Program-made: the position numbers and the translations under genes
Notes under the pieces: model-generated
Told to the model about the DNA's origin: nothing
Database searches by the model: none
What the model saw: the letters and a program-made list of their open reading frames with translations, nothing else
Assembly: GCA_943736015.1 (NCBI GenBank)
Contig: OX031066.1
Location: forward strand, 7,506,245-7,570,244
DNA length: 64,000 nucleotides
Direction of reading: 5' to 3'
DNA from: Tridacna crocea
Taxonomy: Eukaryota > Mollusca > Bivalvia > Cardiida > Cardiidae
Shown here: one piece after another, positions 1 to 64,000 of the stretch
How the letters are laid out: every line of letters starts with the position of its first letter
Numbering within the stretch: position 1 is the stretch's first letter

Positions 1-114
1 AGGCTTGCACCATCCACACATGCCAGATTTCACTGAAAAAGGGCCAAAATTCAAGAAAACGAGGTGGCAGAAGACCTTGTTTTGGTCCTTTCAAGCCCCT
101 TGCAAGAGTTACTT

Positions 115-148
115 CCCTTAAAGTAAACCCTTGATGCCCCCTTTACCC
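115..148 (-). other. Candidate G-quadruplex on the minus strand
   Basis: Plus-strand C runs at 115-117, 128-130, 137-141 and 146-148 give four minus-strand G runs of at least 3 with loops of about 4, 6 and 10 nt. A fifth C run lies at 95-98. The longest loop makes stability uncertain. It recurs in every monomer. Confidence 0.4.
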
Positions 149-248
149 TTCAATTGGATTTCCTGATTCGGGCCACATCAAATTCATATAAGCCAAAATG
201 ATCAATGTACAGTGTAAAAAAAACTGTAAAAAAAAACACACACAAACT

Positions 249-436
249 AATGTGACAAGTTGCTAAAAAAGGGACTGAAAACTCTTTATTTAGCAATTGT
301 TTCCTATTGCATAAATCAAACAAAGGGAACTGAAATGTTACTTTTTCTAATCGCTTCAAACCATGACAAGAAACCCAGTTACGTTGATTACCACCTCATA
401 CGTGCCAATTATGCACATGCGAAAAGCACAGAAAAC
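249..436 (+). repeat. Internal sub-repeat SR1 (188 bp)
   Basis: It opens with AATGTGACAAG, holds TTGCATAAATCAAACAAA, then CCCAGTTACGTTGA and CATACGTGCCA, and ends in AGAAAAC before the next copy. The same order of landmarks recurs in SR2 and SR3. It is present in every monomer. Site B rewrites the TTGCAT part in monomers 12, 13, 32 and 33. Confidence 0.8.
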
Positions 437-594
437 AATGTGACAAGTGGCTAAAAAAAAGACTGAAAACTCTTTCAGTAGGAAGGAATTGCAGCATAAT
501 TTTTCTAATATCTTAAAAGCGCAACAAGAAACCCAGTTACGTTGACTACTGTTTCATACGTGCCAGTTACGCACATGCAAGAACACCAGAAAAT
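437..594 (+). repeat. Internal sub-repeat SR2 (158 bp)
   Basis: It begins AATGTGACAAGTGGC and retains CCCAGTTACGTTGACTAC and CATACGTGCCAGTTACGC. It lacks most of the ~30 bp around the TTGCATAA...GGGAACTGAA landmark found in SR1 and SR3, so it looks like a copy with an internal deletion. Confidence 0.8.
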
Positions 595-794
595 GATGTG
601 ACAAGTGGCTAAAAAAAGACATGAAGACTCTTTTCAGTAGCAACTGCTTCCTGTTGCATAAGTCAAACAAAGAGAACTGAATTTTTTTTTTTTTTTTTTC
701 TCCAATCTCTCTATATCGTACGTGACAACAAACCCATTTACGTTGACTACCGTCTCGTAGGTGCCAGTTACGTATCCGCGAAAACATGAAAAAT
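595..794 (+). repeat. Internal sub-repeat SR3 (200 bp) with T tract
   Basis: It begins GATGTGACAAGTGGC and contains GTTGCATAAGTCAAACAAAG, a T18 tract at 682-699, then CCCATTTACGTTGACTAC and GGTGCCAGTTACGTATCCGC. The T tract is the main length-variable site of the array (16-19). Confidence 0.8.
682..699 (+). repeat. Polymorphic poly-T tract
   Basis: The tract is 18 T in monomer 1 and ranges from 16 to 19 across the array. In monomers 12, 13, 32 and 33 it is followed by an extra C. It is followed by CTCCAATCTCT. It resembles the reverse complement of a poly-A tail, but no retroposon body or target duplication is seen around it. Confidence 0.9.
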
Positions 795-963
795 CGACTT
801 ACGGGACATTTCATAGCAGACGACACCTGTTTCCCAAGTCAAATATAGGGAACTGAATTTCTATTTTTTTTCCTCCAATCTCTTTATACCGTGACAACAA
901 ACCCATTTACGCTGACTACCGTTTGTAGGTGCCAGTTACGTATCTGCTAAAACATGAAAAAAT
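795..963 (+). repeat. Internal sub-repeat SR4 (169 bp)
   Basis: It begins CGACTTACGGGACATTTC. A shorter TCAAATATAGGGAACTGAA element replaces the TCAAACAAAG form. It then continues CCCATTTACGCTGACTACCG and GGTGCCAGTTACGTATC, closely matching the second half of SR3. Confidence 0.8.
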
Positions 964-1114
964 CGACTTACGGGACATTTCATAGCAGACGACACCTGTT
1001 TCTCAAGTCAAATATAGGGATTTTTCTTTTTTCGTTTTTTCTCACTAGGACCATTGATTCGGTTGCGATGACCATCTCACCCATATGAGACGGTTACGTG
1101 CTGCGCATGAAATT
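964..1114 (+). repeat. Internal sub-repeat SR5 (~151 bp)
   Basis: The first ~60 bp nearly repeat the start of SR4 (CGACTTACGGGACATTTC to AAATATAGGG). The second half is strongly diverged (CCATTGATTCGGTTGCGATG, GGTTACGTGCTGCGCATG) but keeps the order of landmarks. Confidence 0.65.
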
Positions 1115-1253
1115 GTAAAGACACTTTCGGAGGCAACTGAAACCTGTTGCACAAATCAAAGAAAGGTAAATCAAACATTTCCCTGTTTTCATACCAGGGT
1201 CAGTTTTGGTGACCGTGCGAGTCAAAAGTCAATGTCATGTTTAACCGCTGCAC
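1115..1253 (+). repeat. Internal sub-repeat SR6 (~139 bp)
   Basis: It contains GGCAACTGAAACCTGTTGCA and CAAATCAAAGAAAGG, recognisable as the CAACTGCTTCCTGTTGCATAAGTCAAACAAAG element of SR3. The rest is too diverged to align confidently by eye. It includes a short 5-bp-stem inverted repeat, CCCTG...CAGGG (1181-1199). Confidence 0.55.
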
Positions 1254-1340
1254 AAAAAAATAAAATTCAGAAGCAACTGGTTGCTGTTGCAGAAACTTTT
1301 TCTGATGAAAAAAAAAAAAATCTTGTTTTCGTTTGAAGAA
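1254..1340 (+). repeat. Internal sub-repeat SR7, truncated (~87 bp), with A tract
   Basis: GCAACTGGTTGCTGTTGCAG resembles the CAACTGCTTCCTGTTGCA landmark of SR3. It is followed by a 13-A tract (1308-1320) that varies from 12 to 15 among monomers. AATAAA occurs at 1259-1264 within an A-rich context. Confidence 0.5.
1308..1320 (+). repeat. Polymorphic poly-A tract
   Basis: 13 A follow GATG in monomer 1. In class K the G is also A, giving GAT plus 14 or 15 A; class B has 12. Its length changes shift every reading frame that crosses it. Confidence 0.9.
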
Positions 1341-1423
1341 TTAAAAAAATAGGCCATAGAGATACAATAAGATGTAAGAATAACTAATAATCAAAATTTT
1401 CTTTGATAGGGTAGAAGACATTG

Positions 1424-1470
1424 TGAGAAAAGGAGAAAATGCTGGTAACCTGCATTGTCTCCTTTTCTCA
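1424..1470. other. Near-perfect hairpin, 19-bp arms, 9-nt loop
   Basis: Arm 1424-1442 (TGAGAAAAGGAG...AATGC) and arm 1452-1470 (GCATT...CTCCTTTTCTCA) pair at 18 of 19 positions. The loop is TGGTAACCT. It recurs in all 34 complete monomers (positions in the monomer entries). The M variant replaces bases in and beside the left arm: offset 1434 A>G turns one pair into G-T, while 1424-1433 still pair. It could form a cruciform in DNA or a stem-loop in a transcript of either strand. Confidence 0.85.
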
Positions 1471-1497
1471 GATTATTTTCCAAAGCCTTCTCTTTTA

Positions 1498-1524
1498 GGG
1501 GTGTTAAAAGGCGTCATTGTATGG
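1498..1524 (+). other. Splice-site-like cassette
   Basis: A pyrimidine stretch ending CTCTTTTAG (AG at 1497-1498) is followed 25 nt later by ATG|GTAAGAG (GT at 1524-1525), a strong donor match. A second acceptor-like TCTCCTTTTCTCAG ends at 1471, inside and just past the right arm of the hairpin. The cassette exists in every monomer. It would matter only if the array is transcribed on the plus strand. Confidence 0.3.
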
Positions 1525-1560
1525 TAAGAGGTCAATAAGGATAAACATATACCCCCCCTC

Positions 1561-1647
1561 CCAATCATCCAATCAAATCTCATCCCTCTGTGAAATTATC
1601 CAATCACAGAAGCTTTTAGGAAATCAGAATGGGTGCCAACAGCCAAT
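1561..1647 (+). promoter_or_regulatory. CCAAT-box cluster (4 copies)
   Basis: CCAAT occurs at 1561-1565, 1569-1573, 1600-1604 and 1643-1647, each followed by C (CCAATC), the NF-Y-like form. The cluster recurs in every monomer. In monomers 2, 14, 16, 19, 22 and 34, variant N turns the third box into TCAAT. Function is inferred from motif density only. Confidence 0.5.
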
Positions 1648-1722
1648 CAGAGAGGCTGTGAGAAATTCAAAATTGGGCCCGGCCTGGCAGTCAGAGAGGC
1701 TTTGAGAAATCAAAATGGGCCC
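1604..1722 (+). repeat. Three degenerate ~44-bp tandem repeats
   Basis: Copies begin at 1604, 1647 and 1691. Each has the form TCAGAGAGGCT-T/GTGAGAAAT-CAAAAT-GGGCCC, the first copy being the most diverged (TCACAGAAGCTTTTAGGAAA). The first two copies overlap or abut a CCAAT box. They form a minisatellite inside the larger monomer. Confidence 0.75.
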
Positions 1723-1734
1723 AGTCAGCCAAAC

Positions 1735-1743
1735 AAAATGGCG
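1735..1743 (+). promoter_or_regulatory. YY1-like site
   Basis: AAAATGGCG matches the core of the known YY1 binding consensus (AANATGGCG). It follows the CCAAT cluster by ~90 bp and recurs in each monomer. The match is short and its significance is unproven. Confidence 0.35.
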
Positions 1744-1783
1744 CCCTAATATATCAATTGAAAAAACAGTGAACAAAAAACGG

Positions 1784-1791
1784 CATAAAAG
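1784..1791 (+). promoter_or_regulatory. TATA-like box CATAAAAG
   Basis: CATAAAAG lies ~140 bp downstream of the last CCAAT box and 40 bp downstream of the YY1-like site. Variant O in monomers 4 and 24 makes it AATAAAAG. In an AT-rich spacer this could be chance. Confidence 0.3.
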
Positions 1792-1829
1792 TGGATTTAA
1801 AGTCTTTTTTAAAGGCTGCTGTGCAGTCC

Positions 1830-1844
1830 TTGGCAAACTGCCAG
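1830..1844. promoter_or_regulatory. NFI-like palindrome
   Basis: TTGGC, five bases, then GCCAG: one base short of the NFI full-site consensus TTGGC(N5)GCCAA. It straddles the arbitrary monomer boundary and recurs at each complete monomer junction. Confidence 0.4.
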
Positions 1845-3684
1845 GCTTGCACCATCCACACATGCCAGATTTCACTGAAAAAGGGCCAAAATTCAAGAAA
1901 ACGAGGTGGCAGAAGACCTTGTTTTGGTCCTTTCAAGCCCCTTGCAAGAGTTACTTCCCTTAAAGTAAACCCTTGATGCCCCCTTTACCCTTCAATTGGA
2001 TTTCCTGATTCGGGCCACATCAAATTCATATAAGCCAAAATGATCAATGTACAGTGTAAAAAAAACTGTAAAAAAAAACACACACAAACTAATGTGACAA
2101 GTTGCTAAAAAAGGGACTGAAAACTCTTTATTTAGCAATTGTTTCCTATTGCATAAATCAAACAAAGGGAACTGAAATGTTACTTTTTCTAATCGCTTCA
2201 AACCATGACAAGAAACCCAGTTACGTTGATTACCACCTCATACGTGCCAATTATGCACATGCGAAAAGCACAGAAAACAATGTGACAAGTGGCTAAAAAA
2301 AAGACTGAAAACTCTTTCAGTAGGAAGGAATTGCAGCATAATTTTTCTAATATCTTAAAAGCGCAACAAGAAACCCAGTTACGTTGACTACTGTTTCATA
2401 CGTGCCAGTTACGCACATGCAAGAACACCAGAAAATGATGTGACAAGTGGCTAAAAAAAGACATGAAGACTCTTTTCAGTAGCAACTGCTTCCTGTTGCA
2501 TAAGTCAAACAAAGAGAACTGAATTTTTTTTTTTTTTTTTTCTCCAATCTCTCTATATCGTACGTGACAACAAACCCATTTACGTTGACTACCGTCTCGT
2601 AGGTGCCAGTTACGTATCCGCGAAAACATGAAAAATCGACTTACGGGACATTTCATAGCAGACGACACCTGTTTCCCAAGTCAAATATAGGGAACTGAAT
2701 TTCTATTTTTTTTCCTCCAATCTCTTTATACCGTGACAACAAACCCATTTACGCTGACTACCGTTTGTAGGTGCCAGTTACGTATCCGCTAAAACATGAA
2801 AAAATCGACTTACGGGACATTTCATAGCAGAAGACACCTGTTTCTCAAGTCAAATATAGGGATTTTTCTTTTTTCGTTTTTTCTCACTAGGACCATTGAT
2901 TCGGTTGCGATGACCATCTCACCCATATGAGACGGTTACGTGCTGCGCATGAAATTGTAAAGACACTTTCGGAGGCAACTGAAACCTGTTGCACAAATCA
3001 AAGAAAGGTAAATCAAACATTTCCCTGTTTTCATACCAGGGTCAGTTTTGGTGACCGTGCGAGTCAAAAGTCAATGTCATGTTTAACCGCTGCACAAAAA
3101 AATAAAATTCAGAAGCAACTGGTTGCTGTTGCAGAAACTTTTTCTGATGAAAAAAAAAAAAATCTTGTTTTCGTTTGAAGAATTAAAAAAATAGGCCATA
3201 GAGATACAATAAGATGTAAGAATAACTAATAATCAAAATTTTCTTTGATAGGGTAGAAGACATATTGAGAAAAGGGGAAAATGCTGGTAACCTGCATTGT
3301 CTCCTTTTCTCAGATTATTTTCCAAAGCCTTCTCTTTTAGGGGTGTTAAAAGGCGTCATTGTATGGTAAGAGGTCAATAAGGATAAACATATACCCCCCC
3401 TCCCAATCATCCAATCAAATCTCATCCCTCTGTGAAATTATTCAATCACAGAAGCTTTTAGGAAATCAGAATGGGTGCCAACAGCCAATCAGAGAGGCTG
3501 TGAGAAATTCAAAATTGGGCCCGGCCTGGCAGTCAGAGAGGCTTTGAGAAATCAAAATGGGCCCAGTCAGCCAAACAAAATGGCGCCCTAATATATCAAT
3601 TGAAAAAACAGTGAACAAAAAACGGCATAAAAGTGGATTTAAAGTCTTTTTTAAAGGCTGCTGTGCAGTCCTTGGCAAACTGCC
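1843..3684 (+). repeat. Monomer 2
   Basis: Length 1,842 bp. It carries J, M and N, with T18 and A13. Hairpin at 3266-3312 is weakened by M. The third CCAAT box is lost through N. It pairs with monomer 22 and matches 14 and 34 at all compared sites. Confidence 0.96.
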
Positions 3685-5524
3685 AGGCTTGCACCATCCA
3701 CACATGCCAGATTTCACTGAAAAAGGGCCAAAATTCAAGAAAACGAGGTGGCAGAAGACCTTGTTTTGGTCCTTTCAAGCCCCTTGCAAGAGTTACTTCC
3801 CTTAAAGTAAACCCTTGATGCCCCCTTTACCCTTCAATTGGATTTCCTGATTCGGGCCACATCAAATTCATATAAGCCAAAATGATCAATGTACAGTGTA
3901 AAAAAAACTGTAAAAAAAAACACACACAAACTAATGTGACAAGTTGCTAAAAAAGGGACTGAAAACTCTTTATTTAGCAATTGTTTCCTATTGCATAAAT
4001 CAAACAAAGGGAACTGAAATGTTACTTTTTCTAATCACTTCAAACCATGACAAGAAACCCAGTTACGTTGATTACCACCTCATACGTGCCAATTATGCAC
4101 ATGCCAAAAGCACAGAAAACAATGTGACAAGTGGCTAAAAAAAAGACTGAAAACTCTTTCAGTAGGAAGGAATTGCAGCATAATTTTTCTAATATCTTAA
4201 AAGCGCAACAAGAAACCCAGTTACGTTGACTACTCTTTCATACGTGCAAGTTACGCACATGCAAGAACACCAGAAAATGATGTGACAAGTGGCTAAAAAA
4301 AGACATGAAGACTCTTTTCAGTAGCAACTGCTTCCTGTTGCATAAGTCAAACAAAGAGAACTGAATTTTTTTTTTTTTTTTCTCCAATCTCTCTATATCG
4401 TACGTGACAACAAACCCATTTACGTTGACTACCGTCTCGTAGGTGCCAGTTACGTATCCGCGAAAACATGAAAAATCGACTTACGGGACATTTCATAGCA
4501 GACGACACCTGTTTCCCAAGTCAAATATAGGGAACTGAATTTCTATTTTTTTTCCTCCAATCTCTTTATACCGTGACAACAAACCCATTTACGCTGACTA
4601 CCGTTTGTAGGTGCCAGTTACGTATCTGCTAAAACATGAAAAAATCGACTTACGGGACATTTCATAGCAGACGACACCTGTTTCTCAAGTCAAATATAGG
4701 GATTTTTCTTTTTTCGTTTTTTCTCACTAGGACCATTGATTCGGTTGCGATGACCATCTCACCCATATGAGACGGTTACGTGCTGCGCATGAAATTGTAA
4801 AGACACTTTCGGAGGCAACTGAAACCTGTTGCACAAATCAAAGAAAGGTAAATCAAACATTTCCCTGTTTTCATACCAGGGTCAGTTTTGGTGACCGTGC
4901 GAGTCAAAAGTCAATGTCATGTTTAACCGCTGCACAAAAAAATAAAATTCAGAAGCAACTGGTTGCTGTTGCAGAAACTTTTTCTGATGAAAAAAAAAAA
5001 AATCTTGTTTTCGTTTGAAGAATTAAAAAAATAGGCCATAGAGATACAATAAGATGTAAGAATAACTAATAATCAAAATTTTCTTTGATAGGGTAGAAGA
5101 CATTGTGAGAAAAGGAGAAAATGCTGGTAACCTGCATTGTCTCCTTTTCTCAGATTATTTTCCAAAGCCTTCTCTTTTAGGGGTGTTAAAAGGCGTCATT
5201 GTATGGTAAGAGGTCAATAAGGATAAACATATACCCCCCCTCCCAATCATCCAATCAAATCTCATCCCTCTGTGAAATTATCCAATCACAGAAGCTTTTA
5301 GGAAATCAGAATGGGTGCCAACAGCCAATCAGAGAGGCTGTGAGAAATTCAAAATTGGGCCCGGCCTGGCAGTCAGAGAGGCTTTGAGAAATCAAAATGG
5401 GCCCAGTCAGCCAAACAAAATGGCGCCCTAATATATCAATTGAAAAAACAGTGAACAAAAAACGGCATAAAAGTGGATTTAAAGTCTTTTTTAAAGGCTG
5501 CTGTGCAGTCCTTGGCAAACTGCC
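3685..5524 (+). repeat. Monomer 3
   Basis: Length 1,840 bp because of T16; A13. It carries A, D, E and I, the largest number of lettered changes in any copy. Hairpin at 5106-5152 is intact. It pairs with monomer 23. Confidence 0.96.
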
Positions 5525-7366
5525 AGGCTTGCACCATCCACACATGCCAGATTTCACTGAAAAAGGGCCAAAATTCAAGAAAACGAGGTGGCAGAAGACC
5601 TTGTTTTGGTCCTTTCAAGCCCCTTGCAAGAGTTACTTCCCTTAAAGTAAACCCTTGATGCCCCCTTTACCCTTCAATTGGATTTCCTGATTCGGGCCAC
5701 ATCAAATTCATATAAGCCAAAATGATCAATGTACAGTGTAAAAAAAACTGTAAAAAAAAACACACACAAACTAATGTGACAAGTTGCTAAAAAAGGGACT
5801 GAAAACTCTTTATTTAGCAATTGTTTCCTATTGCATAAATCAAACAAAGGGAACTGAAATGTTACTTTTTCTAATCGCTTCAAACCATGACAAGAAACCC
5901 AGTTACGTTGATTACCACCTCATACGTGCCAATTATGCACATGCGAAAAGCACAGAAAACAATGTGACAAGTGGCTAAAAAAAAGACTGAAAACTCTTTC
6001 AGTAGGAAGGAATTGCAGCATAATTTTTCTAATATCTTAAAAGCGCAACAAGAAACCCAGTTACGTTGACTACTCTTTCATACGTGCCAGTTACGCACAT
6101 GCAAGAACACCAGAAAATGATGTGACAAGTGGCTAAAAAAAGACATGAAGACTCTTTTCAGTAGCAACTGCTTCCTGTTGCATAAGTCAAACAAAGAGAA
6201 CTGAATTTTTTTTTTTTTTTTTTCTCCAATCTCTCTATATCGTACGTGACAACAAACCCATTTACGTTGACTACCGTCTTGTAGGTGCCAGTTACGTATC
6301 CGCGAAAACATGAAAAATCGACTTACGGGACATTTCATAGCAGACGACACCTGTTTCCCAAGTCAAATATAGGGAACTGAATTTCTATTTTTTTTCCTCC
6401 AATCTCTTTATACCGTGACAACAAACCCATTTACGCTGACTACCGTTTGTAGGTGCCAGTTACGTATCCGCTAAAACATGAAAAAATCGACTTACGGGAC
6501 ATTTCATAGCAGACGACACCTGTTTCTCAAGTCAAATATAGGGATTTTTCTTTTTTCGTTTTTTCTCACTAGGACCATTGATTCGGTTGCGATGACCATC
6601 TCACCCATATGAGACGGTTACGTGCTGCGCATGAAATTGTAAAGACACTTTCGGAGGCAACTGAAACCTGTTGCACAAATCAAAGAAAGGTAAATCAAAC
6701 ATTTCCCTGTTTTCATACCAGGGTCAGTTTTGGTGACCGTGCGAGTCAAAAGTCAATGTCATGTTTAACCGCTGCACAAAAAAATAAAATTCAGAAGCAA
6801 CTGGTTGCTGTTGCAGAAACTTTTTCTGATGAAAAAAAAAAAAATCTTGTTTTCGTTTGAAGAATTAAAAAAATAGGCCATAGAGATACAATAAGATGTA
6901 AGAATAACTAATAATCAAAATTTTCTTTGATAGGGTAGAAGACATTGTGAGAAAAGGAGAAAATGCTGGTAACCTGCATTGTCTCCTTTTCTCAGATTAT
7001 TTTCCAAAGCCTTCTCTTTTAGGGGTGTTAAAAGGCGTCATTGTATGGTAAGAGGTCAATAAGGATAAACATATACCCCCCCTCCCAATCATCCAATCAA
7101 ATCTCATCCCTCTGTGAAATTATCCAATCACAGAAGCTTTTAGGAAATCAGAATGGGTGCCAACAGCCAATCAGAGAGGCTGTGAGAAATTCAAAATTGG
7201 GCCCGGCCTGGCAGTCAGAGAGGCTTTGAGAAATCAAAATGGGCCCAGTCAGCCAAACAAAATGGCGCCCTAATATATCAATTGAAAAAACAGTGAACAA
7301 AAAACGGAATAAAAGTGGATTTAAAGTCTTTTTTAAAGGCTGCTGTGCAGTCCTTGGCAAACTGCC
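5525..7366 (+). repeat. Monomer 4
   Basis: Length 1,842 bp, T18, A13. It carries D, H and O. O changes the TATA-like CATAAAAG to AATAAAAG at 7308. Hairpin at 6948-6994. It pairs with monomer 24 and is a near copy of 9. Confidence 0.96.
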
Positions 7367-9207
7367 AGGCTTGCACCATCCACACATGCCAGATTTCACT
7401 GAAAAAGGGCCAAAATTCAAGAAAACGAGGTGGCAGAAGACCTTGTTTTGGTCCTTTCAAGCCCCTTGCAAGAGTTACTTCCCTTAAAGTAAACCCTTGA
7501 TGCCCCCTTTACCCTTCAATTGGATTTCCTGATTCGGGCCACATCAAATTCATATAAGCCAAAATGATCAATGTACAGTGTAAAAAAAACTGTAAAAAAA
7601 AACACACACAAACTAATGTGACAAGTTGCTAAAAAAGGGACTGAAAACTCTTTATTTAGCAATTGTTTCCTATTGCATAAATCAAACAAAGGGAACTGAA
7701 ATGTTACTTTTTCTAATCGCTTCAAACCATGACAAGAAACCCAGTTACGTTGATTACCACCTCATACGTGCCAATTATGCACATGCGAAAAGCACAGAAA
7801 ACAATGTGACAAGTGGCTAAAAAAAAGACTGAAAACTCTTTCAGTAGGAAGGAATTGCAGCATAATTTTTCTAATATCTTAAAAGCGCAACAAGAAACCC
7901 AGTTACGTTGACTACTGTTTCATACGTGCCAGTTACGCACATGCAAGAACACCAGAAAATGATGTGACAAGTGGCTAAAAAAAGACATGAAGACTCTTTT
8001 CAGTAGCAACTGCTTCCTGTTGCATAAGTCAAACAAAGAGAACTGAATTTTTTTTTTTTTTTTCTCCAATCTCTCTATATCGTACGTGACAACAAACCCA
8101 TTTACGTTGACTACCGTCTCGTAGGTGCCAGTTACGTATCCGCGAAAACATGAAAAATCGACTTACGGGACATTTCATAGCAGACGACACCTGTTTCCCA
8201 AGTCAAATATAGGGAACTGAATTTCTATTTTTTTTCCTCCAATCTCTTTATACCGTGACAACAAACCCATTTACGCTGACTACCGTTTGTAGGTGCCAGT
8301 TACGTATCCGCTAAAACATGAAAAAATCGACTTACGGGACATTTCATAGCAGACGACACCTGTTTCTCAAGTCAAATATAGGGATTTTTCTTTTTTCGTT
8401 TTTTCTCACTAGGACCATTGATTCGGTTGCGATGACCATCTCACCCATATGAGACGGTTACGTGCTGCGCATGAAATTGTAAAGACACTTTCGGAGGCAA
8501 CTGAAACCTGTTGCACAAATCAAAGAAAGGTAAATCAAACATTTCCCTGTTTTCATACCAGGGTCAGTTTTGGTGACCGTGCGAGTCAAAAGTCAATGTC
8601 ATGTTTAACCGCTGCACAAAAAAATAAAATTCAGAAGCAACTGGTTGCTGTTGCAGAAACTTTTTCTGATAAAAAAAAAAAAAAATCTTGTTTTCGTTTG
8701 AAGAATTAAAAAAATAGGCCATAGAGATACAATAAGATGTAAGAATAACTAATAATCAAAATTTTCTTTGATAGGGTAGAAGACATTGTGAGAAAAGGAG
8801 AAAATGCTGGTAACCTGCATTGTCTCCTTTTCTCAGATTATTTTCCAAAGCCTTCTCTTTTAGGGGTGTTAAAAGGCGTCATTGTATGGTAAGAGGTCAA
8901 TAAGGATAAACATATACCCCCCCTCCCAATCATCCAATCAAATCTCATCCCTCTGTGAAATTATCCAATCACAGAAGCTTTTAGGAAATCAGAATGGGTG
9001 CCAACAGCCAATCAGAGAGGCTGTGAGAAATTCAAAATTGGGCCCGGCCTGGCAGTCAGAGAGGCTTTGAGAAATCAAAATGGGCCCAGTCAGCCAAACA
9101 AAATGGCGCCCTAATATATCAATTGAAAAAACAGTGAACAAAAAACGGCATAAAAGTGGATTTAAAGTCTTTTTTAAAGGCTGCTGTGCAGTCCTTGGCA
9201 AACTGCC
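7367..9207 (+). repeat. Monomer 5
   Basis: Length 1,841 bp, T16. K joins the A tract so that 15 A follow GAT, the longest A tract class in the window. Hairpin at 8789-8835. It pairs with monomer 25. Confidence 0.96.
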
Positions 9208-11050
9208 AGGCTTGCACCATCCACACATGCCAGATTTCACTGAAAAAGGGCCAAAATTCAAGAAAACGAGGTGGCAGAAGACCTTGTTTTGGTCCTTTCA
9301 AGCCCCTTGCAAGAGTTACTTCCCTTAAAGTAAACCCTTGATGCCCCCTTTACCCTTCAATTGGATTTCCTGATTCGGGCCACATCAAATTCATATAAGC
9401 CAAAATGATCAATGTACAGTGTAAAAAAAACTGTAAAAAAAAACACACACAAACTAATGTGACAAGTTGCTAAAAAAGGGACTGAAAACTCTTTATTTAG
9501 CAATTGTTTCCTATTGCATAAATCAAACAAAGGGAACTGAAATGTTACTTTTTCTAATCGCTTCAAACCATGACAAGAAACCCAGTTACGTTGATTACCA
9601 CCTCATACGTGCCAATTATGCACATGCGAAAAGCACAGAAAACAATGTGACAAGTGGCTAAAAAAAAGACTGAAAACTCTTTCAGTAGGAAGGAATTGCA
9701 GCATAATTTTTCTAATATCTTAAAAGCGCAACAAGAAACCCAGTTACGTTGACTACTGTTTCATACGTGCCAGTTACGCACATGCAAGAACACCAGAAAA
9801 TGATGTGACAAGTGGCTAAAAAAAGACATGAAGACTCTTTTCAGTAGCAACTGCTTCCTGTTGCATAAGTCAAACAAAGAGAACTGAATTTTTTTTTTTT
9901 TTTTTTTCTCCAATCTCTCTATATCGTACGTGACAACAAACCCATTTACGTTGACTACCGTCTCGTAGGTGCCAGTTACGTATCCGCGAAAACATGAAAA
10001 ATCGACTTACGGGACATTTCATAGCAGACGACACCTGTTTCCCAAGTCAAATATAGGGAACTGAATTTCTATTTTTTTTCCTCCAATCTCTTTATACCGT
10101 GACAACAAACCCATTTACGCTGACTACCGTTTGTAGGTGCCAGTTACGTATCCGCTAAAACATGAAAAAATCGACTTACGGGACATTTCATAGCAGACGA
10201 CACCTGTTTCTCAAGTCAAATATAGGGATTTTTCTTTTTTCGTTTTTTCTCACTAGGACCATTGATTCGGTTGCGATGACCATCTCACCCATATGAGACG
10301 GTTACGTGCTGCGCATGAAATTGTAAAGACACTTTCGGAGGCAACTGAAACCTGTTGCACAAATCAAAGAAAGGTAAATCAAACATTTCCCTGTTTTCAT
10401 ACCAGGGTCAGTTTTGGTGACCGTGCGAGTCAAAAGTCAATGTCATGTTTAACCGCTGCACAAAAAAATAAAATTCAGAAGCAACTGGTTGCTGTTGCAG
10501 AAACTTTTTCTGATAAAAAAAAAAAAAATCTTGTTTTCGTTTGAAGAATTAAAAAAATAGGCCATAGAGATACAATAAGATGTAAGAATAACTAATAATC
10601 AAAATTTTCTTTGATAGGGTAGAAGACATTGTGAGAAAAGGAGAAAATGCTGGTAACCTGCATTGTCTCCTTTTCTCAGATTATTTTCCAAAGCCTTCTC
10701 TTTTAGGGGTGTTAAAAGGCGTCATTGTATGGTAAGAGGTCAATAAGGATAAACATATACCCCCCCTCCCAATCATCCAATCAAATCTCATCCCTCTGTG
10801 AAATTATCCAATCACAGAAGCTTTTAGGAAATCAGAATGGGTGCCAACAGCCAATCAGAGAGGCTGTGAGAAATTCAAAATTGGGCCCGGCCTGGCAGTC
10901 AGAGAGGCTTTGAGAAATCAAAATGGGCCCAGTCAGCCAAACAAAATGGCGCCCTAATATATCAATTGAAAAAACAGTGAACAAAAAACGGCATAAAAGT
11001 GGATTTAAAGTCTTTTTTAAAGGCTGCTGTGCAGTCCTTGGCAAACTGCC
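9208..11050 (+). repeat. Monomer 6
   Basis: Length 1,843 bp, T19, K with 14 A after GAT. Hairpin at 10632-10678. It pairs with monomer 26 and resembles 11. Confidence 0.96.
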
Positions 11051-51577: not shown

Positions 51578-53419
51578 AGGCTTGCACCATCCACACATGC
51601 CAGATTTCACTGAAAAAGGGCCAAAATTCAAGAAAACGAGGTGGCAGAAGACCTTGTTTTGGTCCTTTCAAGCCCCTTGCAAGAGTTACTTCCCTTAAAG
51701 TAAACCCTTGATGCCCCCTTTACCCTTCAATTGGATTTCCTGATTCGGGCCACATCAAATTCATATAAGCCAAAATGATCAATGTACAGTGTAAAAAAAA
51801 CTGTAAAAAAAAACACACACAAACTAATGTGACAAGTTGCTAAAAAAGGGACTGAAAACTCTTTATTTAGCAATTGTTTCCTATTGCATAAATCAAACAA
51901 AGGGAACTGAAATGTTACTTTTTCTAATCGCTTCAAACCATGACAAGAAACCCAGTTACGTTGATTACCACCTCATACGTGCCAATTATGCACATGCGAA
52001 AAGCACAGAAAACAATGTGACAAGTGGCTAAAAAAAAGACTGAAAACTCTTTCAGTAGGAAGGAATTGCAGCATAATTTTTCTAATATCTTAAAAGCGCA
52101 ACAAGAAACCCAGTTACGTTGACTACTCTTTCATACGTGCCAGTTACGCACATGCAAGAACACCAGAAAATGATGTGACAAGTGGCTAAAAAAAGACATG
52201 AAGACTCTTTTCAGTAGCAACTGCTTCCTGTTGCATAAGTCAAACAAAGAGAACTGAATTTTTTTTTTTTTTTTTTCTCCAATCTCTCTATATCGTACGT
52301 GACAACAAACCCATTTACGTTGACTACCGTCTTGTAGGTGCCAGTTACGTATCCGCGAAAACATGAAAAATCGACTTACGGGACATTTCATAGCAGACGA
52401 CACCTGTTTCCCAAGTCAAATATAGGGAACTGAATTTCTATTTTTTTTCCTCCAATCTCTTTATACCGTGACAACAAACCCATTTACGCTGACTACCGTT
52501 TGTAGGTGCCAGTTACGTATCCGCTAAAACATGAAAAAATCGACTTACGGGACATTTCATAGCAGACGACACCTGTTTCTCAAGTCAAATATAGGGATTT
52601 TTCTTTTTTCGTTTTTTCTCACTAGGACCATTGATTCGGTTGCGATGACCATCTCACCCATATGAGACGGTTACGTGCTGCGCATGAAATTGTAAAGACA
52701 CTTTCGGAGGCAACTGAAACCTGTTGCACAAATCAAAGAAAGGTAAATCAAACATTTCCCTGTTTTCATACCAGGGTCAGTTTTGGTGACCGTGCGAGTC
52801 AAAAGTCAATGTCATGTTTAACCGCTGCACAAAAAAATAAAATTCAGAAGCAACTGGTTGCTGTTGCAGAAACTTTTTCTGATGAAAAAAAAAAAAATCT
52901 TGTTTTCGTTTGAAGAATTAAAAAAATAGGCCATAGAGATACAATAAGATGTAAGAATAACTAATAATCAAAATTTTCTTTGATAGGGTAGAAGACATTG
53001 TGAGAAAAGGAGAAAATGCTGGTAACCTGCATTGTCTCCTTTTCTCAGATTATTTTCCAAAGCCTTCTCTTTTAGGGGTGTTAAAAGGCGTCATTGTATG
53101 GTAAGAGGTCAATAAGGATAAACATATACCCCCCCTCCCAATCATCCAATCAAATCTCATCCCTCTGTGAAATTATCCAATCACAGAAGCTTTTAGGAAA
53201 TCAGAATGGGTGCCAACAGCCAATCAGAGAGGCTGTGAGAAATTCAAAATTGGGCCCGGCCTGGCAGTCAGAGAGGCTTTGAGAAATCAAAATGGGCCCA
53301 GTCAGCCAAACAAAATGGCGCCCTAATATATCAATTGAAAAAACAGTGAACAAAAAACGGCATAAAAGTGGATTTAAAGTCTTTTTTAAAGGCTGCTGTG
53401 CAGTCCTTGGCAAACTGCC
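51578..53419 (+). repeat. Monomer 29 (partner of 9)
   Basis: Length 1,842 bp, T18, A13, carrying D and H without O. Hairpin at 53001-53047. Confidence 0.96.
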
Positions 53420-55259
53420 AGGCTTGCACCATCCACACATGCCAGATTTCACTGAAAAAGGGCCAAAATTCAAGAAAACGAGGTGGCAGAAGACCTTGTT
53501 TTGGTCCTTTCAAGCCCCTTGCAAGAGTTACTTCCCTTAAAGTAAACCCTTGATGCCCCCTTTACCCTTCAATTGGATTTCCTGATTCGGGCCACATCAA
53601 ATTCATATAAGCCAAAATGATCAATGTACAGTGTAAAAAAAACTGTAAAAAAAAACACACACAAACTAATGTGACAAGTTGCTAAAAAAGGGACTGAAAA
53701 CTCTTTATTTAGCAATTGTTTCCTATTGCATAAATCAAACAAAGGGAACTGAAATGTTACTTTTTCTAATCGCTTCAAACCATGACAAGAAACCCAGTTA
53801 CGTTGATTACCACCTCATACGTGCCAATTATGCACATGCGAAAAGCACAGAAAACAATGTGACAAGTGGCTAAAAAAAAGACTGAAAACTCTTTCAGTAG
53901 GAAGGAATTGCAGCATAATTTTTCTAATATCTTAAAAGCGCAACAAGAAACCCAGTTACGTTGACTACTGTTTCATACGTGCCAGTTACGCACATGCAAG
54001 AACACCAGAAAATGATGTGACAAGTGGCTAAAAAAAGACATGAAGACTCTTTTCAGTAGCAACTGCTTCCTGTTGCATAAGTCAAACAAAGAGAACTGAA
54101 TTTTTTTTTTTTTTTTCTCCAATCTCTCTATATCGTACGTGACAACAAACCCATTTACGTTGACTACCGTCTCGTAGGTGCCAGTTACGTATCCGCGAAA
54201 ACATGAAAAATCGACTTACGGGACATTTCATAGCAGACGACACCTGTTTCCCAAGTCAAATATAGGGAACTGAATTTCTATTTTTTTTCCTCCAATCTCT
54301 TTATACCGTGACAACAAACCCATTTACGCTGACTACCGTTTGTAGGTGCCAGTTACGTATCCGCTAAAACATGAAAAAATCGACTTACGGGACATTTCAT
54401 AGCAGACGACACCTGTTTCTCAAGTCAAATATAGGGATTTTTCTTTTTTCGTTTTTTCTCACTAGGACCATTGATTCGGTTGCGATGACCATCTCACCCA
54501 TATGAGACGGTTACGTGCTGCGCATGAAATTGTAAAGACACTTTCGGAGGCAACTGAAACCTGTTGCACAAATCAAAGAAAGGTAAATCAAACATTTCCC
54601 TGTTTTCATACCAGGGTCAGTTTTGGTGACCGTGCGAGTCAAAAGTCAATGTCATGTTTAACCGCTGCACAAAAAAATAAAATTCAGAAGCAACTGGTTG
54701 CTGTTGCAGAAACTTTTTCTGATAAAAAAAAAAAAAATCTTGTTTTCGTTTGAAGAATTAAAAAAATAGGCCATAGAGATACAATAAGATGTAAGAATAA
54801 CTAATAATCAAAATTTTCTTTGATAGGGTAGAAGACATTGTGAGAAAAGGAGAAAATGCTGGTAACCTGCATTGTCTCCTTTTCTCAGATTATTTTCCAA
54901 AGCCTTCTCTTTTAGGGGTGTTAAAAGGCGTCATTGTATGGTAAGAGGTCAATAAGGATAAACATATACCCCCCCTCCCAATCATCCAATCAAATCTCAT
55001 CCCTCTGTGAAATTATCCAATCACAGAAGCTTTTAGGAAATCAGAATGGGTGCCAACAGCCAATCAGAGAGGCTGTGAGAAATTCAAAATTGGGCCCGGC
55101 CTGGCAGTCAGAGAGGCTTTGAGAAATCAAAATGGGCCCAGTCAGCCAAACAAAATGGCGCCCTAATATATCAATTGAAAAAACAGTGAACAAAAAACGG
55201 CATAAAAGTGGATTTAAAGTCTTTTTTAAAGGCTGCTGTGCAGTCCTTGGCAAACTGCC
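53420..55259 (+). repeat. Monomer 30 (partner of 10)
   Basis: Length 1,840 bp, T16, K with 14 A after GAT. Hairpin at 54841-54887. Confidence 0.96.
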
Positions 55260-57102
55260 AGGCTTGCACCATCCACACATGCCAGATTTCACTGAAAAAG
55301 GGCCAAAATTCAAGAAAACGAGGTGGCAGAAGACCTTGTTTTGGTCCTTTCAAGCCCCTTGCAAGAGTTACTTCCCTTAAAGTAAACCCTTGATGCCCCC
55401 TTTACCCTTCAATTGGATTTCCTGATTCGGGCCACATCAAATTCATATAAGCCAAAATGATCAATGTACAGTGTAAAAAAAACTGTAAAAAAAAACACAC
55501 ACAAACTAATGTGACAAGTTGCTAAAAAAGGGACTGAAAACTCTTTATTTAGCAATTGTTTCCTATTGCATAAATCAAACAAAGGGAACTGAAATGTTAC
55601 TTTTTCTAATCGCTTCAAACCATGACAAGAAACCCAGTTACGTTGATTACCACCTCATACGTGCCAATTATGCACATGCGAAAAGCACAGAAAACAATGT
55701 GACAAGTGGCTAAAAAAAAGACTGAAAACTCTTTCAGTAGGAAGGAATTGCAGCATAATTTTTCTAATATCTTAAAAGCGCAACAAGAAACCCAGTTACG
55801 TTGACTACTGTTTCATACGTGCCAGTTACGCACATACAAGAACACCAGAAAATGATGTGACAAGTGGCTAAAAAAAGACATGAAGACTCTTTTCAGTAGC
55901 AACTGCTTCCTGTTGCATAAGTCAAACAAAGAGAACTGAATTTTTTTTTTTTTTTTTTTCTCCAATCTCTCTATATCGTACGTGACAACAAACCCATTTA
56001 CGTTGACTACCGTCTCGTAGGTGCCAGTTACGTATCCGCGAAAACATGAAAAATCGACTTACGGGACATTTCATAGCAGACGACACCTGTTTCCCAAGTC
56101 AAATATAGGGAACTGAATTTCTATTTTTTTTCCTCCAATCTCTTTATACCGTGACAACAAACCCATTTACGCTGACTACCGTTTGTAGGTGCCAGTTACG
56201 TATCCGCTAAAACATGAAAAAATCGACTTACGGGACATTTCATAGCAGACGACACCTGTTTCTCAAGTCAAATATAGGGATTTTTCTTTTTTCGTTTTTT
56301 CTCACTAGGACCATTGATTCGGTTGCGATGACCATCTCACCCATATGAGACGGTTACGTGCTGCGCATGAAATTGTAAAGACACTTTCGGAGGCAACTGA
56401 AACCTGTTGCACAAATCAAAGAAAGGTAAATCAAACATTTCCCTGTTTTCATACCAGGGTCAGTTTTGGTGACCGTGCGAGTCAAAAGTCAATGTCATGT
56501 TTAACCGCTGCACAAAAAAATAAAATTCAGAAGCAACTGGTTGCTGTTGCAGAAACTTTTTCTGATAAAAAAAAAAAAAATCTTGTTTTCGTTTGAAGAA
56601 TTAAAAAAATAGGCCATAGAGATACAATAAGATGTAAGAATAACTAATAATCAAAATTTTCTTTGATAGGGTAGAAGACATTGTGAGAAAAGGAGAAAAT
56701 GCTGGTAACCTGCATTGTCTCCTTTTCTCAGATTATTTTCCAAAGCCTTCTCTTTTAGGGGTGTTAAAAGGCGTCATTGTATGGTAAGAGGTCAATAAGG
56801 ATAAACATATACCCCCCCTCCCAATCATCCAATCAAATCTCATCCCTCTGTGAAATTATCCAATCACAGAAGCTTTTAGGAAATCAGAATGGGTGCCAAC
56901 AGCCAATCAGAGAGGCTGTGAGAAATTCAAAATTGGGCCCGGCCTGGCAGTCAGAGAGGCTTTGAGAAATCAAAATGGGCCCAGTCAGCCAAACAAAATG
57001 GCGCCCTAATATATCAATTGAAAAAACAGTGAACAAAAAACGGCATAAAAGTGGATTTAAAGTCTTTTTTAAAGGCTGCTGTGCAGTCCTTGGCAAACTG
57101 CC
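55260..57102 (+). repeat. Monomer 31 (partner of 11)
   Basis: Length 1,843 bp, T19, K with 14 A, and F. Hairpin at 56684-56730. Confidence 0.96.
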
Positions 57103-58945
57103 AGGCTTGCACCATCCACACATGCCAGATTTCACTGAAAAAGGGCCAAAATTCAAGAAAACGAGGTGGCAGAAGACCTTGTTTTGGTCCTTTCAAGCCC
57201 CTTGCAAGAGTTACTTCCCTTAAAGTAAACCCTTGATGCCCCCTTTACCCTTCAATTGGATTTCCTGATTCGGGCCACATCAAATTCATATAAGCCAAAA
57301 TGATCAATGTACAGTGTAAAAAAAACTGTAAAAAAAAACACACACAAACTAATGTGACAAGTTGCTAAAAAAGGGACTGAAAACTCTTTATTTAGCAATT
57401 GTTTCCTTTTGACATAAATCAAACAAAGGGAACTGAAATGTTACTTTTTCTAATCGCTTCAAACCATGACAAGAAACCCAGTCACGTTGATTACCACCTC
57501 ATACGTGCCAATTATGCACATGCGAAAAGCACAGAAAACAATGTGACAAGTGGCTAAAAAAAAGACTGAAAACTCTTTCAGTAGGAAGGAATTGCAGCAT
57601 AATTTTTCTAATATCTTAAAAGCGCAACAAGAAACCCAGTTACGTTGACTACTGTTTCATACGTGCCAGTTACGCACATGCAAGAACACCAGAAAATGAT
57701 GTGACAAGTGGCTAAAAAAAGACATGAAGACTCTTTTCAGTAGCAACTGCTTCCTGTTGCATAAGTCAAACAAAGAGAACTGAATTTTTTTTTTTTTTTT
57801 TTCCTCCAATCTCTCTATATCGTACGTGACAACAAACCCATTTACGTTGACTACCGTCTCGTAGGTGCCAGTTACGTATCCGCGAAAACATGAAAAATCG
57901 ACTTACGGGACATTTCATAGCAGACGACACCTGTTTCCCAAGTCAAATATAGGGAACTGAATTTCTATTTTTTTTCCTCCAATCTCTTTATACCGTGACA
58001 ACAAACCCATTTACGCTGACTACCGTTTGTAGGTGCCAGTTACGTATCCGCTAAAACATGAAAAAATCGACTTACGGGACATTTCATAGCAGACGACACC
58101 TGTTTCTCAAGTCAAATATAGGGATTTTTCTTTTTTCGTTTTTTCTCACTAGGACCATTGATTCGGTTGCGATGACCATCTCACCCATATGAGACGGTTA
58201 CGTGCTGCGCATGAAATTGTAAAGACACTTTCGGAGGCAACTGAAACCTGTTGCACAAATCAAAGAAAGGTAAATCAAACATTTCCCTGTTTTCATACCA
58301 GGGTCAGTTTTGGTGACCGTGCGAGTCAAAAGTCAATGTCATGTTTAACCGCTGCACAAAAAAATAAAATTCAGAAGCAACTGGTTGCTGTTGCAGAAAC
58401 TTTTTCTGATGAAAAAAAAAAAATCTTGTTTTCGTTTGAAGAATTAAAAAAATAGGCCATAGAGATACAATAAGATGTAAGAATAACTAATAATCAAAAT
58501 TTTCTTTGATAGGGTAGAAGACATTGTGAGAAAAGGAGAAAATGCTGGTAACCTGCATTGTCTCCTTTTCTCAGATTATTTTCCAAAGCCTTCTCTTTTA
58601 GGGGTGTTAAAAGGCGTCATTGTATGGTAAGAGGTCAATAAGGATAAACATATACCCCCCCTCCCAATCATCCAATCAAATCTCATCCCTCTGTGAAATT
58701 ATCCAATCACAGAAGCTTTTAGGAAATCAGAATGGGTGCCAACAGCCAATCAGAGAGGCTGTGAGAAATTCAAAATTGGGCCCGGCCTGGCAGTCAGAGA
58801 GGCTTTGAGAAATCAAAATGGGCCCAGTCAGCCAAACAAAATGGCGCCCTAATATATCAATTGAAAAAACAGTGAACAAAAAACGGCATAAAAGTGGATT
58901 TAAAGTCTTTTTTAAAGGCTGCTGTGCAGTCCTTGGCAAACTGCC
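57103..58945 (+). repeat. Monomer 32 (partner of 12)
   Basis: Length 1,843 bp, carrying B and C, T18 plus an extra C, and A12. Hairpin at 58527-58573. Confidence 0.96.
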
Positions 58946-60788
58946 AGGCTTGCACCATCCACACATGCCAGATTTCACTGAAAAAGGGCCAAAATTCAAG
59001 AAAACGAGGTGGCAGAAGACCTTGTTTTGGTCCTTTCAAGCCCCTTGCAAGAGTTACTTCCCTTAAAGTAAACCCTTGATGCCCCCTTTACCCTTCAATT
59101 GGATTTCCTGATTCGGGCCACATCAAATTCATATAAGCCAAAATGATCAATGTACAGTGTAAAAAAAACTGTAAAAAAAAACACACACAAACTAATGTGA
59201 CAAGTTGCTAAAAAAGGGACTGAAAACTCTTTATTTAGCAATTGTTTCCTTTTGACATAAATCAAACAAAGGGAACTGAAATGTTACTTTTTCTAATCGC
59301 TTCAAACCATGACAAGAAACCCAGTTACGTTGATTACCACCTCATACGTGCCAATTATGCACATGCGAAAAGCACAGAAAACAATGTGACAAGTGGCTAA
59401 AAAAAAGACTGAAAACTCTTTCAGTAGGAAGGAATTGCAGCATAATTTTTCTAATATCTTAAAAGCGCAACAAGAAACCCAGTTACGTTGACTACTGTTT
59501 CATACGTGCCAGTTACGCACATGCAAGAACACCAGAAAATGATGTGACAAGTGGCTAAAAAAAGACATGAAGACTCTTTTCAGTAGCAACTGCTTCCTGT
59601 TGCATAAGTCAAACAAAGAGAACTGAATTTTTTTTTTTTTTTTTTCCTCCAATCTCTCTATATCGTACGTGACAACAAACCCATTTACGTTGACTACCGT
59701 CTCGTAGGTGCCAGTTACGTATCCGCGAAAACATGAAAAATCGACTTACGGGACATTTCATAGCAGACGACACCTGTTTCCCAAGTCAAATATAGGGAAC
59801 TGAATTTCTATTTTTTTTCCTCCAATCTCTTTATACCGTGACAACAAACCCATTTACGCTGACTACCGTTTGTAGGTGCCAGTTACGTATCCGCTAAAAC
59901 ATGAAAAAATCGACTTACGGGACATTTCATAGCAGACGACACCTGTTTCTCAAGTCAAATATAGGGATTTTTCTTTTTTCGTTTTTTCTCACTAGGACCA
60001 TTGATTCGGTTGCGATGACCATCTCACCCATATGAGACGGTTACGTGCTGCGCATGAAATTGTAAAGACACTTTCGGAGGCAACTGAAACCTGTTGCACA
60101 AATCAAAGAAAGGTAAATCAAACATTTCCCTGTTTTCATACCAGGGTCAGTTTTGGTGACCGTGCGAGTCAAAAGTCAATGTCATGTTTAACCGCTGCAC
60201 AAAAAAATAAAATTCAGAAGCAACTGGTTGCTGTTGCAGAAACTTTTTCTGATGAAAAAAAAAAAATCTTGTTTTCGTTTGAAGAATTAAAAAAATAGGC
60301 CATAGAGATACAATAAGATGTAAGAATAACTAATAATCAAAATTTTCTTTGATAGGGTAGAAGACATTGTGAGAAAAGGAGAAAATGCTGGTAACCTGCA
60401 TTGTCTCCTTTTCTCAGATTATTTTCCAAAGCCTTCTCTTTTAGGGGTGTTAAAAGGCGTCATTGTATGGTAAGAGGTCAATAAGGATAAACATATACCC
60501 CCCCTCCCAATCATCCAATCAAATCTCATCCCTCTGTGAAATTATCCAATCACAGAAGCTTTTAGGAAATCAGAATGGGTGCCAACAGCCAATCAGAGAG
60601 GCTGTGAGAAATTCAAAATTGGGCCCGGCCTGGCAGTCAGAGAGGCTTTGAGAAATCAAAATGGGCCCAGTCAGCCAAACAAAATGGCGCCCTAATATAT
60701 CAATTGAAAAAACAGTGAACAAAAAACGGCATAAAAGTGGATTTAAAGTCTTTTTTAAAGGCTGCTGTGCAGTCCTTGGCAAACTGCC
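58946..60788 (+). repeat. Monomer 33 (partner of 13)
   Basis: Length 1,843 bp, carrying B, T18 plus an extra C, and A12. Hairpin at 60370-60416. Confidence 0.96.
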
Positions 60789-62630
60789 AGGCTTGCACCA
60801 TCCACACATGCCAGATTTCACTGAAAAAGGGCCAAAATTCAAGAAAACGAGGTGGCAGAAGACCTTGTTTTGGTCCTTTCAAGCCCCTTGCAAGAGTTAC
60901 TTCCCTTAAAGTAAACCCTTGATGCCCCCTTTACCCTTCAATTGGATTTCCTGATTCGGGCCACATCAAATTCATATAAGCCAAAATGATCAATGTACAG
61001 TGTAAAAAAAACTGTAAAAAAAAACACACACAAACTAATGTGACAAGTTGCTAAAAAAGGGACTGAAAACTCTTTATTTAGCAATTGTTTCCTATTGCAT
61101 AAATCAAACAAAGGGAACTGAAATGTTACTTTTTCTAATCGCTTCAAACCATGACAAGAAACCCAGTTACGTTGATTACCACCTCATACGTGCCAATTAT
61201 GCACATGCGAAAAGCACAGAAAACAATGTGACAAGTGGCTAAAAAAAAGACTGAAAACTCTTTCAGTAGGAAGGAATTGCAGCATAATTTTTCTAATATC
61301 TTAAAAGCGCAACAAGAAACCCAGTTACGTTGACTACTGTTTCATACGTGCCAGTTACGCACATGCAAGAACACCAGAAAATGATGTGACAAGTGGCTAA
61401 AAAAAGACATGAAGACTCTTTTCAGTAGCAACTGCTTCCTGTTGCATAAGTCAAACAAAGAGAACTGAATTTTTTTTTTTTTTTTTTCTCCAATCTCTCT
61501 ATATCGTACGTGACAACAAACCCATTTACGTTGACTACCGTCTCGTAGGTGCCAGTTACGTATCCGCGAAAACATGAAAAATCGACTTACGGGACATTTC
61601 ATAGCAGACGACACCTGTTTCCCAAGTCAAATATAGGGAACTGAATTTCTATTTTTTTTCCTCCAATCTCTTTATACCGTGACAACAAACCCATTTACGC
61701 TGACTACCGTTTGTAGGTGCCAGTTACGTATCCGCTAAAACATGAAAAAATCGACTTACGGGACATTTCATAGCAGAAGACACCTGTTTCTCAAGTCAAA
61801 TATAGGGATTTTTCTTTTTTCGTTTTTTCTCACTAGGACCATTGATTCGGTTGCGATGACCATCTCACCCATATGAGACGGTTACGTGCTGCGCATGAAA
61901 TTGTAAAGACACTTTCGGAGGCAACTGAAACCTGTTGCACAAATCAAAGAAAGGTAAATCAAACATTTCCCTGTTTTCATACCAGGGTCAGTTTTGGTGA
62001 CCGTGCGAGTCAAAAGTCAATGTCATGTTTAACCGCTGCACAAAAAAATAAAATTCAGAAGCAACTGGTTGCTGTTGCAGAAACTTTTTCTGATGAAAAA
62101 AAAAAAAATCTTGTTTTCGTTTGAAGAATTAAAAAAATAGGCCATAGAGATACAATAAGATGTAAGAATAACTAATAATCAAAATTTTCTTTGATAGGGT
62201 AGAAGACATATTGAGAAAAGGGGAAAATGCTGGTAACCTGCATTGTCTCCTTTTCTCAGATTATTTTCCAAAGCCTTCTCTTTTAGGGGTGTTAAAAGGC
62301 GTCATTGTATGGTAAGAGGTCAATAAGGATAAACATATACCCCCCCTCCCAATCATCCAATCAAATCTCATCCCTCTGTGAAATTATTCAATCACAGAAG
62401 CTTTTAGGAAATCAGAATGGGTGCCAACAGCCAATCAGAGAGGCTGTGAGAAATTCAAAATTGGGCCCGGCCTGGCAGTCAGAGAGGCTTTGAGAAATCA
62501 AAATGGGCCCAGTCAGCCAAACAAAATGGCGCCCTAATATATCAATTGAAAAAACAGTGAACAAAAAACGGCATAAAAGTGGATTTAAAGTCTTTTTTAA
62601 AGGCTGCTGTGCAGTCCTTGGCAAACTGCC
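60789..62630 (+). repeat. Monomer 34 (partner of 14)
   Basis: Length 1,842 bp, T18, A13, carrying J, M and N. Hairpin at 62212-62258. This is the last monomer in register with copy 1. Confidence 0.96.
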
Positions 62631-64000
62631 AGGCTTGCACCATCCACACATGCCAGATTTCACTGAAAAAGGGCCAAAATTCAAGAAAACGAGGTGGCAG
62701 AAGACCTTGTTTTGGTCCTTTCAAGCCCCTTGCAAGAGTTACTTCCCTTAAAGTAAACCCTTGATGCCCCCTTTACCCTTCAATTGGATTTCCTGATTCG
62801 GGCCACATCAAATTCATATAAGCCAAAATGATCAATGTACAGTGTAAAAAAAACTGTAAAAAAAAACACACACAAACTAATGTGACAAGTTGCTAAAAAA
62901 GGGACTGAAAACTCTTTATTTAGCAATTGTTTCCTATTGCATAAATCAAACAAAGGGAACTGAAATGTTACTTTTTCTAATCGCTTCAAACCATGACAAG
63001 AAACCCAGTTACGTTGATTACCACCTCATACGTGCCAATTATGCACATGCGAAAAGCACAGAAAACAATGTGACAAGTGGCTAAAAAAAAGACTGAAAAC
63101 TCTTTCAGTAGGAAGGAATTGCAGCATAATTTTTCTAATATCTTAAAAGCGCAACAAGAAACCCAGTTACGTTGACTACTGTTTCATACGTGCCAGTTAC
63201 GCACATGCAAGAACACCAGAAAATGATGTGACAAGTGGCTAAAAAAAGACATGAAGACTCTTTTCAGTAGCAACTGCTTCCTGTTGCATAAGTCAAACAA
63301 AGAGAACTGAATTTTTTTTTTTTTTTTTTCTCCAATCTCTCTATATCGTACGTGACAACAAACCCATTTACGTTGACTACCGTCTCGTAGGTGCCAGTTA
63401 CGTATCCGCGAAAACATGAAAAATCGACTTACGGGACATTTCATAGCAGACGACACCTGTTTCCCAAGTCAAATATAGGGAACTGAATTTCTATTTTTTT
63501 TCCTCCAATCTCTTTATACCGTGACAACAAACCCATTTACGCTGACTACCGTTTGTAGGTGCCAGTTACGTATCCGCTAAAACATGAAAAAATCGACTTA
63601 CGGGACATTTCATAGCAGAAGACACCTGTTTCTCAAGTCAAATATAGGGATTTTTCTTTTTTCGTTTTTTCTCACTAGGACCATTGATTCAGTTGCGATG
63701 ACCATCTCACCCATATGAGACGGTTACGTGCTGCGCATGAAATTGTAAAGACACTTTCGGAGGCAACTGAAACCTGTTGCACAAATCAAAGAAAGGTAAA
63801 TCAAACATTTCCCTGTTTTCATACCAGGGTCAGTTTTGGTGACCGTGCGAGTCAAAAGTCAATGTTATGTTTAACCGCTGCACAAAAAAATAAAATTCAG
63901 AAGCAACTGGTTGCTGTTGCAGAAACTTTTTCAGATGAAAAAAAAAAAAATCTTGTTTTCGTTTGAAGAATTAAAAAAATAGGCCATAGAGATACAATAA
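62631..64000 (+). repeat. Monomer 35 (partial, cut by window end)
   Basis: The first 1,370 bp of a monomer, with T18 and J. Three private substitutions lie close together: G>A at 63691, C>T at 63866 and T>A at 63933. It does not match monomer 15, its expected partner. Its T tract and J state resemble monomers 2, 7, 8 and 14. Sites M, N and the hairpin lie beyond the window. Confidence 0.95.

Follow-up and report, generated by a model that had tools for sequence, protein, structure and literature searches.

Does a 36,843-bp register that recurs unchanged in a satellite array of the bivalve Tridacna crocea represent a higher-order repeat, or is it the trace of a single large duplication? The question is raised by a stretch of 64,000 nucleotides (hereafter, the window) of assembly GCA_943736015.1 (1.049 Gb, 31 contigs), located on contig OX031066.1 (C11:7506245-7570244) and occupied over its entire length (1..64000, plus strand) by an AT-rich macrosatellite array, in which a 1.84-kb monomer (1,840-1,843 bp here) is repeated head to tail with 35 monomer starts. 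The initial annotation had reported that a register of 20 monomers repeats without visible difference over at least 26.4 kb, and had named both a higher-order repeat and a very recent large duplication as its possible source. We took the sequence beyond the window by 100 kb on each side (264 kb in total) and then by another 10 kb per side (284 kb), and scanned the 264 kb for self-matches at all offsets from 500 bp up to 2 kb below the full length. Positions upstream of the window are negative, counted backwards from base 1 via base 0 (C11:7506244), and all copy-number and junction results are based on the assembly sequence, not on reads.

Base-by-base comparison of positions 1-26,468 with 36,844-63,311 revealed no differences, and the exact match continues to 26,486/63,329, where a poly-T run has 19 T in one place and 18 T in the other. 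At the offset of 36,843 bp there is a single exact run of 37,189 bp, which pairs window positions -10,702 to 26,486 with 26,141 to 63,329 (C11:7495542-7532730 with 7532385-7569573). It comprises the full 20-monomer unit plus 346 bp, or 2.009 copies, and the second copy begins 346 bp before the end of the first run. Copy 1 starts at -10,702 (C11:7495542), and its part inside the window spans 1..26140. Copy 2, the 36,843-bp unit of 20 monomers, occupies 26141..62983 (C11:7532385-7569227), and the 346 bp past it (62984..63329) still match its own start. Identity stops at the poly-T length difference at 63,330, and the remainder of the window (63330..64000) is array sequence that is out of register and displays background difference; all these segments lie on the plus strand. 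The second-longest exact self-match in the 264 kb, with an offset of 3 monomers, measures 9,240 bp, and there is no N in the 264 kb around the duplication. The extent claimed initially was thus an understatement. Likewise, the proposed agreement of monomers 1-14 with monomers 21-34 holds as to identity but not as to extent, since the block consists of the whole unit plus 346 bp rather than of 14 of the 20 monomers.

As had been claimed, partner monomers are much more alike than are the monomers inside one copy. All 19 complete partner pairs have no differences, long poly-T and poly-A runs included, and the twentieth, boundary pair has the poly-T difference. By contrast, non-partner pairs within the unit (n=190) differ on average by 5.7 changes (range 0-13), with three of the 190 identical. 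Had the 20 partners been unrelated, about 114 differences would have separated them. Neither flank of the run keeps the register, with 42 differing alignment columns per 12 kb upstream and 52 per 12 kb downstream, a few of these being alignment-end gaps or pieces of one indel. The edges are not fully sharp: past one substitution on the upstream side, about 1.77 kb more is identical, and past one T of the poly-T run on the downstream side, about 290 bp more.

The join between the two copies is marked by a hybrid monomer (25788..27630, plus strand), the first part of which corresponds to the right boundary monomer (62,631 on) and the rest to the left boundary monomer (window -11,055 on). The left and right boundary monomers are distinguished by 10 listed difference events, two of which describe one two-base change. 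At event 353 the junction monomer has the right-hand state, and at the other nine, from 700 to 1601, it has the left-hand state, so that a single switch between monomer positions 353 and about 700 accounts for the hybrid. The stretch 26141..26486 (plus strand), 346 bp identical in all three boundary monomers, would be the exchange interval if both edge differences predate the duplication; if both arose after it, the interval would grow to about 2.4 kb. The period is exactly 20 monomers (36,843 bp), which indicates an exchange in phase. A hybrid with one switch, formed in phase and at a spacing of 20 monomers, is the product expected of unequal homologous exchange.

We therefore consider it probable that the locus underwent one tandem duplication, very recent and 20 monomers long, by in-register unequal homologous exchange. 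Two monomers 20 units apart would have paired in register inside the array, and an exchange between sister chromatids or homologues, or an equivalent break-repair event, would have followed. The exchange point would lie within one monomer, inside the 346 bp if the edge differences are older, and the outcome would be a doubled 20-monomer block with a hybrid monomer at the join. In the assembly there are two identical copies, spaced by 20 monomers, with a hybrid junction monomer and with the register lost on both sides. The copies are likely present in the animal as assembled, the exchange may have been meiotic or mitotic, and the event is likely young. At a mutation rate of 1e-8 per site per generation, the absence of differences in 37,189 bp sets an upper bound on age of about 4,000 generations (95% confidence), or about 40,000 at the alternative rate of 1e-9. 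The unchanged homopolymers suggest a younger age, although polishing can equalise homopolymers.

Block copies of other sizes are found in the same array and in a second one. Within the array, exact copies of 9,240 and 5,531 bp occur at a distance of 3 monomers and one of 7,392 bp at 4 monomers, and a stretch of near-identical monomers is located about 99-57 kb upstream of the window. Exact matches to a 45-mer of the monomer number 210 in forward and 359 in reverse orientation across the assembly; among the matches listed, all are reverse and fall at C11 4.36-4.78 Mb, densely from 4.57 Mb. Probes at 4.85, 5.00, 5.05, 5.10, 5.15 and 5.20 Mb also match this reverse array, and those at 4.50 and 5.25 Mb do not. 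The satellite accordingly forms two large arrays in opposite orientation, at C11:4.57-5.2 Mb and C11:7.30-7.73 Mb, about 2.1 Mb apart; between them, from 5.25 to 7.2 Mb, five of six probes had no match and one (L035) had a palindrome match only. Such opposed arrays could mark or favour an inversion. In 50 kb taken from the reverse array (4.568-4.618 Mb) a 21,023-bp stretch matches itself exactly when shifted by 17,775 bp, amounting to 2.18 copies (C11:4571712-4610509, inverted). A short monomer spacing of 1,092 bp was observed three times at the same locus.

Exact block duplications in both arrays point either to an active process or to an assembly fault common to the two. We count the block copies for unequal exchange, as one process acting at several sizes. 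Under the other option, which we regard as unlikely though it is the most serious competitor, one 36.8-kb path was traversed twice during assembly, or two haplotypes were joined end to end, and there is a single real copy. Complete identity, extending to every long homopolymer of the 19 complete monomer pairs, is what such a fault would leave, and the second exact case in the sister array and a run of N elsewhere in the array are in line with it. However, the sequences overlap exactly at the junction for just 346 bp, the boundary sequences differ beyond this stretch, and a false overlap of this kind between accurate kilobase reads would be improbable. The fault would also require the assembler to pass over the differing columns on either side (42 and 52 per 12 kb), and an end-to-end join would demand two haplotypes identical across 37 kb. 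Several points weigh against unequal exchange all the same. Since most HiFi reads are shorter than the copies, their real number could be other than two. The same array also contains a stretch of at least 426 consecutive N that ends at C11:7340126, and although it is not necessarily a scaffold gap, the array is perhaps not fully resolved. A shared assembly fault would equally predict two unmutated large duplications in two arrays.

A broader and rather doubtful proposal is that both arrays are in a present burst of large block duplication. In this case the 36.8-kb and 17.8-kb blocks would be independent events, a few hundred to a few thousand generations old under the mutation rate assumed above, which might have arisen via extrachromosomal circles. 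If this were true, array length would vary greatly among living individuals.

Whether the 20-monomer unit has been amplified many times, with the window displaying only two of the copies, can be judged from the copy number. Five short stretches of the unit contain 41-mers found exactly twice in the 284 kb, and two of these five unit-specific words were searched for in the whole assembly. The first occurs in exactly two places in the 1.05-Gb assembly, 7513532 and 7550375, separated by 36,843 bp. The second occurs at C11 7498473 and 7535316, with the same spacing of 36,843 bp, and once each on C9 and C10, the C9 place falling within a related tandem array. With these two words no third copy was found in the whole assembly, which holds a single tandem duplication with two copies only. 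The initial annotation had suggested seeking further copies at multiples of 36,843 bp; background difference prevails beyond both ends of the run. A higher-order repeat would indeed display partners in fixed order and spacing that are much more alike than neighbouring monomers are. Yet the register is lost on both sides, the unit-specific words occur only twice in 284 kb (one of them twice assembly-wide), and the monomers of the unit are all of one type. A higher-order repeat is very improbable here and was rejected for this assembly on account of its two copies and one monomer type. Of the two sources named initially, duplication was retained and higher-order repeat was not (two copies, register lost, monomers at most 13 changes apart), so that the comment on the unusual length of a 20-mer as a higher-order unit has no application here. 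Equally remote is an extrachromosomal circle of 20 monomers as the origin of the junction, either by closing a loop in the assembly graph or by inserting itself again next to its source. Although excision between two in-phase monomers would yield such a hybrid monomer, this history is indistinguishable here from linear exchange, and simple exchange needs fewer steps.

The array that hosts the duplication starts between C11:7.30 and 7.31 Mb and ends between 7.72 and 7.73 Mb, as located by short probes. All 35 monomer starts in the window are on the plus strand. The 264 kb have 143 monomer spacings, of which 142 were retained as full length (the length filter excluded a single 824-bp spacing), and no starts on the opposite strand. 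With its long head-to-tail run of kilobase monomers, the array is satellite DNA of the macrosatellite kind. Pairs of the 142 full-length monomers are on average 7.1 changes apart per ~1,843 bp, and the background difference between monomers of the array is about 0.35-0.4%. The excluded 824-bp spacing (C11:7666517-7667340) begins with 365 bp of normally oriented monomer and continues with about 460 bp in reverse orientation. Monomer GC (guanine plus cytosine) content is 38%. The first monomer has degenerate internal tandem repeats at 234..1295 (plus strand), with best self-offsets of 158 and 169 bp, the period of 169 also being obtained in a separate repeat analysis. Variable sites per 100-bp bin of the monomer range from 0 to 18 among 123 monomers (the 19 second-copy monomers removed). 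The least variable bins are those of 0-299, with 2 sites each, and 1500-1599, with 0, if the short last bin, with 1, is set aside; on these raw counts, part of the monomer may be constrained.

No transfer RNA was detected in the window. Six Rfam matches with E-values of 1 or less were obtained in bases 1-4000, all of them below their gathering scores (28.5 bits vs 54.3 for the best); the lowest E-value (0.0058) is that of mir-31 on the palindrome described below (27.1 bits vs gathering score of 51). None of five open reading frames, out of 36 listed in bases 1-6000, scored above a curated Pfam cut-off, the best sub-threshold match being BP28CT (E-value of 0.0093, 16.3 bits vs cut-off of 27). 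Related tandem arrays are found at C11:2.0 Mb (91% identity), C11:4.3 Mb (about 80%, period of 1,616) and C9:14.99 Mb (about 82-86%, period of 1,600).

An imperfect palindrome at 1414..1480 of the first monomer recurs through the array and belongs to a very abundant family of dispersed fold-back elements. A 33-bp palindrome core, taken from a copy at C2:10.0 Mb, matches the 1.05-Gb assembly exactly at 86,470 forward and 86,126 reverse places, 172,596 in total or about one per 6 kb, with none for the backwards control. The forward and reverse counts represent separate places, because the reverse complement of the core differs at its centre base. The C2 copy (stretch L063, 327-393) folds into a 32-bp stem with a z-score of -12.9. 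Short relatives of the palindrome are present in four of 26 probes outside the arrays (40 probes overall), and the element is recorded in L063, L035, L061 and L066. A literature search with two 15-mers from it pointed to one paper, on zebrafish fucosyltransferase. Separately, contig C31 carries a mitochondrial-type COX1 at 26,516-27,850 with three in-frame TGA codons; this contig is longer than 27 kb, a large size should it be an animal mitochondrial genome.

Block duplications via unequal crossing-over in satellite arrays were reportedly treated by Smith in 1976. In its general features, that process shares with the present case an in-register exchange of near-identical repeats, a hybrid at the junction and a change in copy number. 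There is no difference in kind; here the block is long in base pairs because the monomer is 1.84 kb, and no mutation can be seen between the copies. Unequal crossover is described as a standard process of satellite turnover in a published account (PMC9859433). Alphoid higher-order repeats, according to PMC11276891, have monomers 20-40% apart and unit copies less than 5% apart, organised in arrays. The unit studied here resembles them, so described, in being an ordered multi-monomer unit with copies much closer than monomers (0 vs a mean of 5.7 changes). It differs in that 2.009 copies are not an amplification into an array, and in that its monomers do not form distinct types more than 5% apart; at no more than 13 changes in ~1,843 bp (0.7%) over 190 pairs, they are one type by the alphoid definition. 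Among bivalve satellites with repeats of 160-180 bp, many have a relationship to Helitron elements; in oysters, satellites of 2,077 and 2,091 bp are annotated as Helitron and monomers of 160-180 bp predominate (PMC8268682). The degenerate internal repeats of our monomer, at offsets of 158 and 169 bp, are analogous to these in repeat size, and by this analogy the monomer seems to fit the known style of bivalve satellites. The D4Z4, DXZ4 and NBL2 macrosatellites (PMC8122249) likewise have kilobase tandem monomers, the comparison being one of general layout.

Taken in this context, and subject to support from reads, the 20-monomer block is a recent tandem duplication in a macrosatellite, clearly marked but of an ordinary sort. 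The type of event is a textbook one; we take it as a sharp snapshot of an established process rather than as a novel sort of repeat, and do not claim it as undescribed. Its value is that it is an unusually clean case of the event that satellite theory assumes, in which the two copies, their outer boundaries on either side and the hybrid monomer are all legible, unblurred by mutation. It gives the size of the event (20 monomers) and the exchange interval (346 bp), and could be typed in other individuals.

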